DNA of 64,000 bases from Radiobacillus kanasensis (GTDB lineage: Bacteria; Bacillota; Bacilli; Bacillales; Amphibacillaceae): assembly GCF_021049245.1 (NCBI RefSeq), contig NZ_CP088020.1:1742001-1806000 (forward strand), read 5' to 3'. The notes beneath the pieces were generated by a model, which made no database searches, had not been told where the DNA came from, and saw only the letters and a program-made list of their open reading frames with translations. This document shows, in pieces, positions 8,368 to 53,056 of the stretch (the stretch's first letter is position 1; every line of letters starts with the position of its first letter). A program made the translations under genes and the position numbers.

Positions 8368-8375
8368 CAAAAAGC

Positions 8376-8405
8376 AAGAAGCTGGCATGCCAGTTTCTTT
8401 TTTAT
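8376..8405 (+). terminator. Rho-independent terminator after pnp
   Basis: AAGAAGCTGG pairs with CCAGTTTCTT around CATG, then a run of T residues. It lies 9 nt after the pnp stop and ends the rpsO-pnp transcript before the repeat element. Confidence 0.8.
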
Positions 8406-8462
8406 TTTGTCCGTGATTCAAAAGGTTGTTTTTCCAAGTATTGAACTTTAACTAGAAAGTTG

Positions 8463-9312
8463 ATATAAAATGCGACATTACGAAATAATAAAACTTAATA
8501 CAAAACCATCGGTTTAGTGACTGCGCGGTGTGTGTACGATGCTGATTTCCGTTGCGGGTAATCGCTTTCCGCGGGCACGGTCTCAGCCAGGCCACTACAT
8601 CGAATAATCATCTTCGTAGCCTTGCACCGAGGAAGCTTACTTCAAAGCGTTACTAGAAGACGCAGGTGCATCTTTCGGGGGCTTCACCTCGTGCTGTTCC
8701 CACAGGACAAGGAAATTTTCTTAGAATAGACATCGCACGAAGAAAATTGGGCTTTATTTTCGAGGAGTCGATTACCCTCCACTCCAATCATCATGCCGTA
8801 AGTAGCTGACAAAGAAAGTTTCGAGGTATAAAGTAACTTTTAATAATATTATAAGTAAGTGAATCTTATTAGCTTATTATAGTTATCAGACTTATAATTT
8901 TTGAATAGGGTTTCCAATTATTTAGAGGATTAATTAGCTGCTCCCGGCTACAAAGTTTACCAAATTAGAAAGTAGTAACTTAGCGTAGGCAGAATACGGA
9001 GACTCCTCGAAAATAAAAATCCATTTTCTTCGTGCGATGTAATGCTGCCGAAGCACTTCTTGTCCTACGGGAACAGCACGAGGTGAAAGCCCCGCAGGAA
9101 GTGAACTGTGCAAGCGAGGAGGGGGATGTCCCTGCGTCTACTAGTGTTGCTTCGAAGTAGGCTTCCTCGGGACAAGGCAGCGAAGAAGTAAACTCGCAGT
9201 AGTCGCCTGGCCGTGCCCGTGGAAAGCGGAGTGTTCTGCCGAAGCGTGGCATCAAGCTTCACTTTTCATTCTTTTAATAAATTTTTAATCAGAGTTACGT
9301 CGCGGCCTATAT
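8463..9312. repeat. MITE-like palindromic repeat element, copy 1
   Basis: An 850-bp gene-free element. The ends are imperfect terminal inverted repeats: ATATAAAATGCGACATTACG on the left and, read on the minus strand, ATATAGGCCGCGACGTAACT on the right. Inside are two long arms in opposite orientation, about 8550-8800 and 8990-9255. They share blocks such as CTTTCCGCGGGCACGG (right arm: CTTTCCACGGGCACGG), GACGCAGG, CACCTCGTGCTGTTCCC, CGCACGAAGAAAAT and TTTTCGAGGAGTC. The spacer between them is AT-rich. The whole can fold into a very long hairpin. The second copy lies at 52157-52725. No transposase is present. Open frames inside it are products of the repeat and not genes. Confidence 0.75.
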
Positions 9313-9541
9313 AAATAGTAACAAAGTATGCGGAAGTTTCTGATTTTAATAAGATCTGATCCGAAGTAAGGAGTGCAATAGGAAATACTTTTGTTTTCCT
9401 CAGTCAACCTAGTCTCCGTATCATAAATTAAGATAAGAAAAGATAAATTGGACTAATTTCATACCCGCAATCACGATTCCATCATTCTTCGTTCTACCTT
9501 GTCCTTCCGTATCATATCGTAAAAACGAGGAGGGAACGAAG

Positions 9542-52042: not shown

Positions 52043-52076
52043 AGAAAGCTGGGAAAGAAGTGTTCTAATCCTAATA

Positions 52077-52133
52077 AAATCCGAACTGATTCGAAATCTC
52101 TCATTAGAATTCGAATCAGTTCGGATTTTTCTT
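52077..52133 (+). terminator. Strong terminator after mutL
   Basis: AAATCCGAACTGATTCGAA pairs with TTCGAATCAGTTCGGATTT over 19 bp around a 14-nt loop, followed by TTCTTTTG. It is one of the longest terminator stems in the window. Confidence 0.85.
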
Positions 52134-52156
52134 TTGTTAATTTTGTTGCAAATAAT

Positions 52157-52725
52157 ATATAAATTGCGACGTAACGAAATAGTGATTCTTTTATTTTCTT
52201 TAACAAGTTGACTGCTAATCCGGCGCTGCGGAAAAATACTCGCTTTCCGTGGGGAACGCCTCAGCCAGGCTACTTCAGCGAGTAATCTACTTCGCTGCCT
52301 TGCACCGAGGAACTTTACCACGAAGCATAACTAGAAGACGCAGGTGCATCCCTTCGGGGTCTTCAACTGTTCCTTTCCCAGACAAGGAATACTGCGGAAG
52401 CTTAACCTCGCACGCAGAAAATTGGGGTTTATTTTCAAGGAGTCTCGCATTTTTCCGCAGCTTAGTACGGAGTTCTTTTCAAGTCAGAGGTGTTTCCGGC
52501 CTTCTCATTTTATAGGTATTAATAACCCATTATATTAGAAAATACCTACAAGCGTAGGCAGATTACGTAGACTCCAGCGGGAACAGCGCGAGGTTGACAG
52601 TTTCGTTCATATCAGGAAGCTGAGGCCGTGCCCGCGGAAAGCGAAGTATTCTGCCGGAACGTGGCATTTAGGCTAAACTTGACTTTTTAGTAAATATTCA
52701 AAAATCCTTACGTCGCATTTTCTAT
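52157..52725. repeat. MITE-like palindromic repeat element, copy 2
   Basis: A 569-bp relative of the element at 8463-9312. The terminal inverted repeats match at 17 of 20 positions: ATATAAATTGCGACGTAACG on the left and, on the minus strand, ATAGAAAATGCGACGTAAGG on the right. The left arm (about 52220-52465) contains CTTTCCGTGGGGAACG, CTCAGCCAGGC, CTTGCACCGAGGAAC, TAGAAGACGCAGGTGCATC and GCAGAAAATTGGGGTTTATT in the same order as copy 1. The right arm (about 52555-52670) is shorter than in copy 1, but keeps GGCCGTGCCCGCGGAAAGCG. It carries no gene; the open frames seen inside are spurious. Confidence 0.78.
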
Positions 52726-53056
52726 CAAATATGAATGAATTCCAGAAATTGAAAAGTAACATTCTAATTATTCTGTAATCATTCGTCTGTAAAGTGGGAA
52801 GTTAACACTTTTCCAACCTATTTTGTGCAAAAAAAAGCCGGCTTATAACCGGCTTAAGAAGGGGGAAATCATGTTTCTATTTTAGCACTAAAATAGCCAT
52901 AAAATGGATAATATTTAGAAATTTGTTGAAAAGGGTAAAATAGGCGCATATGCTGCAAGGTAAGCAGGTCTAATGCCCTAATAAGTTCTGTCATAATTTT
53001 GGTTGTTTCGTAAAAAATAGAACCTAGTCAATGAATCAGAGGGGAAGGACGATGGT
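52726..53056. other. Gap before the AbiGi-like gene, with two hairpins
   Basis: No supported gene. AAGCCGG (52835) pairs with CCGGCTT (52849); on the minus strand this is followed by eight T residues and would be a canonical terminator, although no minus-strand gene lies upstream of it. Next, AAGGGGGAAATC stands before ATG TTT CTA TTT TAG, a five-codon minigene with a good ribosome site, whose end is part of a second hairpin (CTATTTTAG facing CTAAAATAG). Confidence 0.45.

Follow-up and report, generated by a model that had tools for sequence, protein, structure and literature searches.

The closest described systems are IS1272 and TnSha1 of staphylococci, members of the IS1182 family that insert at stem-loops, often terminators, and delete all or part of the hairpin without target duplication (PMC4923244, PMC5678879; the word "terminator" has 0 occurrences in the latter). 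As far as the accessible parts of those papers describe them, they share with the system reported here an IS1182-family transposase, a stem-loop target that is often a terminator, and apparent hairpin deletion, whereas the ends found here are common to a large non-coding MITE family and carry terminators of their own. The bcr1 repeats of the Bacillus cereus group measure ~150-170 bp and have a conserved stem-loop (PMC2267715), and bcr1 is classed among bacterial MITEs (PMC3733652); it is much shorter than the family here and is set apart from it by description, not by sequence. SPRITE, BOX and RUP of Streptococcus pneumoniae are small repeats, SPRITE terminator-like, that insert into each other (PMC10969869); they belong to another genus, their sequences are compared by description only, and the part of that paper available mentions no IS1182 partner. 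REP and BIME elements with RAYT are palindromic intergenic modules like those here, and differ both in their ends and in the transposase likely to move them. That IS1182-family elements replace stem-loops is already published. In the open-licence literature searched, neither MITEs driven by IS1182 in Bacillaceae nor terminator-carrying IS1182 ends came up, and nor did the nested family.

The window is a stretch of 64,000 nucleotides from the chromosome of Radiobacillus kanasensis (NZ_CP088020.1, positions 1,742,001 to 1,806,000). The feature under study within it is, by a reading to which we assign a probability of about 0.7, a diverged copy of a large, non-coding, nested mobile family, in which an IS1182 element would move a main subfamily (C/G, after two outer end types given below) by stem-loop replacement, with ends that would bring in a new terminator. 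An earlier note had marked 8463-9312 as a MITE-like element that follows the pnp terminator directly and holds no gene, and much of that description is borne out. The pnp intrinsic terminator, a hairpin followed by a T-run with a counterpart in the same-genus relative G001, begins just upstream, at 8372-8405 on the plus strand, and the only open reading frames inside the element are two short minus-strand ones, of 91 aa and 65 aa. The two 20-base repeats the note took for its ends, 8463-8482 on the plus strand (ATATAAAWTGCGACGTAAC) and 9293-9312 on the minus strand, do agree at 13 of 20 bases after reverse complementation, far beyond chance (2 of 20000 composition shuffles equal that).

The long imperfect inverted arms between these repeats are likewise real. 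Three pairs of blocks align in inverted orientation, 8576-8672 with 9125-9221 (76%), 8730-8769 with 9001-9040 (90%) and 8671-8711 with 9059-9099 (85%), for a local alignment score of 79 against a maximum of 15 in 60 shuffles. An AT-rich centre (8812-8963) separates the left arm, at 8539-8794 on the plus strand, from the right arm, identified by inverted-repeat and copy alignments as an inverted relative of it at 8964-9262 on the minus strand. The left arm is a complete GC-rich unit (TGATTTCCG...CCAATCA). Judged from these alignments, the composite is one of nested modules, because the left arm has inverted ends of its own and occurs alone, with near-identical limits, in another genus (several G021 matches run from query 78/81 to 328/331, that is, window 8540-8793).

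The boundaries did not survive. The earlier note had itself named copies aligning beyond its ends as grounds for moving them, and such copies exist at both sides: L034 and L058 align from 8413, while L039, L043, L050, L057, L061, L064 and L065 run on to 9324-9325. Moreover, blastn homology with G001 stops at 8407 and restarts at 9475, with ~21 nt between in that genome, giving 8408-9474 as the maximum extent of the insert that G001 lacks. Because copies align past both ends and homology breaks off this far out, the ATATAAAWTGCGACGTAAC repeat is an inner layer and not the true end of the element. Outside it lie a left outer end of a type we call D (AAAGGCTGTGTTTTA..TTGTTRCTTTTCC type), at 8413-8462 on the plus strand, where L034 and L058 align from the first base, L049 aligns from 8418, and the first bases of the window copy are degenerate or missing, and a right outer end of type E (AAAGCTGTTTTCGCATAGTTTGTTGCTATTT type), at 9313-9345 on the minus strand, placed by eye against L049, L058 and L220. 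As a target duplication, GTGATTC and CACGATTCC near the two edges are similar but unconvincing. The classification as MITE-like mobile DNA stands: element and family are short and non-coding, with inverted ends, multiple copies and sites that are empty in the relative.

Searching the host's own genome (G000; 4.03 Mb, two contigs) with 8463-9312 returned 182 matches, which were grouped by hand into at least 39 places, the window plus L031-L068, among the matches listed. Queries with the C and G outer ends gave 78 and 26 matches and yielded 20 further places, L158-L177, so that family members or remnants occupy at least 59 places, some of them on the 66.6-kb contig. That contig carries at least four, at about 20, 30, 48 and 55 kb. 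The earlier note had also pointed to a likeness with GC-rich repeats that lie between genes in other Bacillaceae, and the comparison bears this out, with the window element matched in 28 of 41 genomes, the host's included, when at most 12 candidates were scored per genome; it has no match in the plasmids searched. C ends occur in 13 of the 41, again including the host. In G007, which belongs to another genus, there are 33 C-end matches together with six near-full-length IS copies of ~80% protein identity, two with an internal stop, and in one G007 MITE, L114, the outer ends, the C hairpin and the arms are all the same as here.

Comparison of flanks shows that conserved sequence of a few types lies outside the ATATAAAWTGCGACGTAAC repeats, which most scanned loci carry, inverted at two sides. 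The C type reads AGAGGCTGGGACAAAAGTGTTTTAATCC..AAAATCCGAACT..AGTTCGGATTTTTC..TTGTTGCTAATTTT and the G type AGAGGCTGGGACAAAACTATAACTTCCCACTC..TTTTCATTCATAGTTG, while the window's own subfamily has D (AAAGGCTGTGTTTTA..TTGTTRCTTTTCCAAG..GTAGTTG) and E (AAAGCTGTTTTCGCATA..TTGTTGCTATTT). From the outside in, members of the main subfamily consist of a 16-bp AGAGGCTGGGACAAAA, a C end with a terminator-like hairpin or a G end, ATATAAAWTGCGACGTAAC, and GC-rich inverted modules around an AT-rich core. Across 58 loci (L031-L068 and L158-L177, leaving the window out of the count), 44 have a C end, making this the commonest subfamily, and 12 have neither C nor G. The distance from C to G end is ~450-1070 bp except at L044, which holds two elements; judged by length, not by copy-by-copy ORF lists, this is too short for a 600-aa gene. 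The window holds a second copy, of the C/G subfamily, at 52045-52824 on the plus strand (L064, 546-1325), with its C-end terminator hairpin (AAAATCCGAACTGATTCGAA...AGTTCGGATTTT) at 52076-52129 on the plus strand and a scanner score of 52. Its interior belongs to a different subfamily from that of the first copy, and G001 carries a simple terminator at the site, the hairpin GAGCATCAATTTATTTTGATGCTC.

A candidate for the enzyme that moves the C/G elements is present in the same genome. Eight PF05598 genes lie in eight copies of one ~1.84-kb insertion sequence, 99-100% identical to the first copy. All eight copies have terminal inverted repeats (AGGCTGGGACAAAA and AGGCTGGGACATAA, one per end), with AGGCTGGGACAWAA at both ends. 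The 600-aa protein, taken from the L208 copy, has domains PF13751, PF01609 and PF05598 and scores 439.3 bits against NCBIfam model NF033551 (IS1182), where the cutoff is 270; with this score and inverted repeats at both ends, the eight full-length copies belong to the IS1182 family. If up to 4 mismatches in 16 are allowed, the 16-bp AGAGGCTGGGACAAAA is found at 35 of the 44 C edges and at 19 of the 28 G edges, compared with 25 of 1440 random windows from the same loci, and at both edges in 15 of the 26 loci that have both C and G. The C/G subfamily, then, has ends like those of an IS of the same genome, with 9 of the 44 C edges and 9 of the 28 G edges lying beyond 4 mismatches from the IS ends. 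An IS1182 element with AGAGGCTGGGACAAAA ends is, on this likeness, the likely motor of the main C/G subfamily. The MITE copies are ~75-93% identical, against 99-100% for the IS copies, and are therefore older, so the IS now present need not have been the one that spread them.

GC-rich palindromes can also be mobilized by an IS200/IS605-like Y1 transposase, as in REP/RAYT systems, and the elements here are indeed palindromic and intergenic; Y1_Tnp is found in 34 of the 41 genomes, and at one locus (L206, in G027) a Y1 transposase gene is preceded, at a distance of about 240-360 nt, by a GC-rich unit (1146-1265). Yet G015 and G016 have 0 Y1_Tnp matches despite 24 and 15 matches to the arm, a loose scan of the other Y1 loci (L178-L207) turned up no more than isolated motif hits, and the outer ends match the IS1182 element rather than a Y1 partner. 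A Y1 enzyme as motor seems to us barely credible. We rejected it in view of the two genomes that have arm matches and no Y1_Tnp, the unit near the L206 gene notwithstanding.

The sites of insertion were compared with G001, the only same-genus genome, whose DNA differs by about 20%; the MITE sites counted are those in the ~0.8 of its 3.6 Mb that the comparison covered. Both flanks align at 13 MITE sites (L034, L040, L059 and L067, with one flank aligned, were left out), and all of these except L031, where the scanner finds none, have a terminator-like hairpin in G001, which leaves 12. The hairpin is gone from the host at nine of the twelve: L033, L041, L046, L055, L057, L060, L064, L066 and L063. 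At L063 one of two G001 hairpins was lost, the G001 hairpin at L066 is at the scoring limit, and at L055 and L064 a hairpin that persists in the right flank was judged to be other than the missing one. The loss at L060 is doubtful in that the hairpin G001 has at this site looks like the C hairpin that the element itself carries, and counting L060 as retained gives 8 of 12. The hairpin is retained at L042, at L053 (read by eye, outside the 120-nt flank used) and at the window, where it is the pnp terminator; two of these three, the window and L053, have neither a C nor a G end, a regularity noticed post hoc. The L060 site in G001, at about 1471411-1471504, carries a hairpin AAAATCCGAACT..AGTTCGGATTTT like that of the C end, perhaps a relic C end in that genome.

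Element-free terminators behave otherwise. The part of G001 syntenic with the window has 23 hairpins, from which two in a 4.2-kb gap and one at an element site were removed; all 20 remaining have a counterpart in the host, a loss of 0 of 20 obtained with scanner thresholds (22 in G001, 19 in G000) that favour finding retention. Two of these 20 map to one host hairpin, and the pnp terminator serves both as a control and as the window's retained site. The Fisher p for 9 of 12 is 8e-6, or 5e-5 with L060 retained; it is 8e-5 when the two control double counts are also removed, and 1e-4 when L060 and L066 are left out. Confined to C/G sites with a G001 hairpin, eight or nine of 10 show the hairpin replaced by the element (L042 retained, L060 doubtful) against 0 of 20 controls, the pattern that stem-loop replacement predicts. 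The IS itself leaves the same trace: at L210, with both flanks aligned, and at L211, with the right flank only, the G001 hairpin is absent.

Could these losses be ordinary turnover between two species, with the elements merely landing in free intergenic space? The comparison depends on one same-genus relative, the species are ~20% apart in DNA, several junctions are inexact, and some sites lost extra bases beyond the hairpin. Against this stand the 0 of 20 losses among element-free terminators, the same absence at the two IS sites, and the position of the element edges. A C edge faces the 3' end of an open frame in 39 of 44 cases, and 35 of those 39 lie at -5 to +12 nt from the stop codon, with a median of 4, where frames are those of >=60 codons in the 530-nt flank, not annotated genes, edges are set by alignment, and a stop codon created at the junction could shorten some distances. 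Ordinary terminators in the G001 segment start a median of 8 nt past the stop, with 18 of 20 facing a 3' end. Because the two sets of distances to the stop are alike, the element edge sits where the foot of a hairpin would be. We regard turnover as an unlikely account of these sites, and stem-loop replacement as the better one. Deletion of the hairpin is not the sole outcome, as the direct repeat of a palindrome at L208 implies: the IS copy there is flanked on both sides, at about 158-180 and 2015-2040, by the near-palindromic TTTTTTATCAATAAAAGAG, as if the hairpin had been duplicated and not deleted.

The element ends carry hairpins of their own. The consensus fold of 43 of the 44 C ends (L036 was dropped) is a stem followed by a T-run, with 96.4% of cells paired and eight double-change cells in five pairs, a result that 0 of 500 shuffles match, the shuffles ignoring relatedness. 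Of 12 listed MITEs, the scanner, which allows loops of at most 10, picks up the C hairpin in just 3; most copies have longer loops, so the stem rests on the consensus fold. The G ends have no obvious terminator by eye. The observation extends to the presumptive motor in a survey that took a single IS1182 element from each of nine sources, namely G000, G002, G007, G010 and G016 and plasmids of Terribacillus, Cytobacillus, Kurthia and Mesobacillus (L258-L260, additional copies from the same genomes, were unused). Sixteen of the 18 expected ends were found, excepting the second ends of L239 and L278 and with two motif hits inside L237 set aside, and in 14 of the 16 a strong hairpin, pointing inward and accompanied by a T-run, lies no more than 100 nt from the terminal repeat; the remaining two, in L237 and L238, have by eye a hairpin with a longer loop or a bulge. 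These hairpins fall into about five groups of unlike sequence, and within a group both sides of the stem change together by eye (CCC/GGG in G000, CCG/CGG in G002, CTG/CAG in G007). Since L278, from Terribacillus, and L239, from G016, have an identical hairpin, G016 may be a close relative of the former, and we do not claim nine genera.

The following course of events would account for these patterns. An IS1182-type transposase, we infer, acts on C/G elements by stem-loop replacement: a gene would lose its terminator hairpin and have the element inserted at that spot, the mechanism published for IS1272, whereupon the C end would supply a new terminator facing the gene, a role whose sequence pattern is observed and whose function is deduced from it. 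The end hairpins would then stop transcription where the lost terminator had done so, and with the gene still terminated the insertion would be tolerated and the neighbouring gene would probably keep working. That the IS1182 group and its MITEs together are terminator-exchanging, with the terminator serving as landing structure, being deleted and being replaced by one borne on the element end, so that the 3' ends of dozens of genes have been rewritten, strikes us as somewhat more probable than the contrary. If true, tens of copies of a terminator-destroying IS could be tolerated because each restores what was removed; the reading would also offer a testable rule for landing sites and required end content, account for a class of long nested GC-rich intergenic repeats of Bacillaceae that have no Rfam match and did not turn up in the literature searched, and suggest a source of new gene terminators.

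The window copy itself stands at some distance from the C/G subfamily. It has D/E ends (AAAGGCTGTTTT type) and not AGAGGCTGGGACAAAA, for which the scanned stretch has just two hits, each with 4 mismatches and away from any inward-facing edge, and its site shows no stem-loop replacement, with the pnp terminator intact and no other hairpin in the G001 interval. Such ends (AAAGGCTGTTTT...TTGTTGCTTTT) might define a transposon family apart, moved by a transposase of its own, and the window copy would belong to that family alone, the IS1182 ends having nested later around some of its members. D or E ends occur without GGGACAAAA at the window and at L034, L049, L058, L218, L219 and L220, and of these L220, a D/E copy reduced to about 190 bp, favours a D/E-specific transposase; by eye, the C end is similar to the E end in its inner part, and retention of the terminator at both the window and L053 also fits. 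No transposase gene with D/E ends was seen, however, in a motif scan of the IS1182 loci or by eye in the D/E loci, nor did the loci read include a transposase sharing the TGCGACGTAA ends, which the earlier note had proposed as a thing to look for. The window interior, moreover, is common to L031 and L032, ~85% identical over nearly full length, and both of these have IS1182-type outer ends at 0-3 mismatches, which favours a shared history. A separate D/E family is a serious alternative that we hold at a little under even odds. On the preferred reading, that of one nested family with IS1182 as the motor of its C/G subfamily, the window copy would be either a bare inner-layer element moved by another transposase or a composite stripped of its outer layer.

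The earlier note had further suggested that the nested symmetry would yield a giant hairpin RNA or cruciform. Such a fold is predicted and very stable, lying 21-23 sd below the mean of 20 shuffles on each strand (z about -21 to -23); that it is functional and kept for its structure is a highly improbable reading. Of 181 long-range pairs in the window copy, 27 are broken in each of the full-length homologues L031 and L032, about 3 sd fewer than the ~32 and 31 (sd 1.6 and 1.5) expected at random, which speaks for maintenance. Neither homologue has a compensatory change (0 and 0), one-sided changes are mostly pair-breaking (26 of 36 in each copy), and Rfam gives a single match only, with an E-value of 0.57. 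The hairpin as a maintained structure is unsupported, because these two full-length homologues show no compensation. It is more likely a by-product of the nested inverted modules, of which it would be a consequence, than a functional RNA.

Two of the C ends, L169 and L176, are solitary and suggest that the host has retained some of these terminators while the remainder of the element decayed; they consist of a remnant of the terminal repeat and the terminator hairpin with no further element, and possibly represent domesticated terminators.
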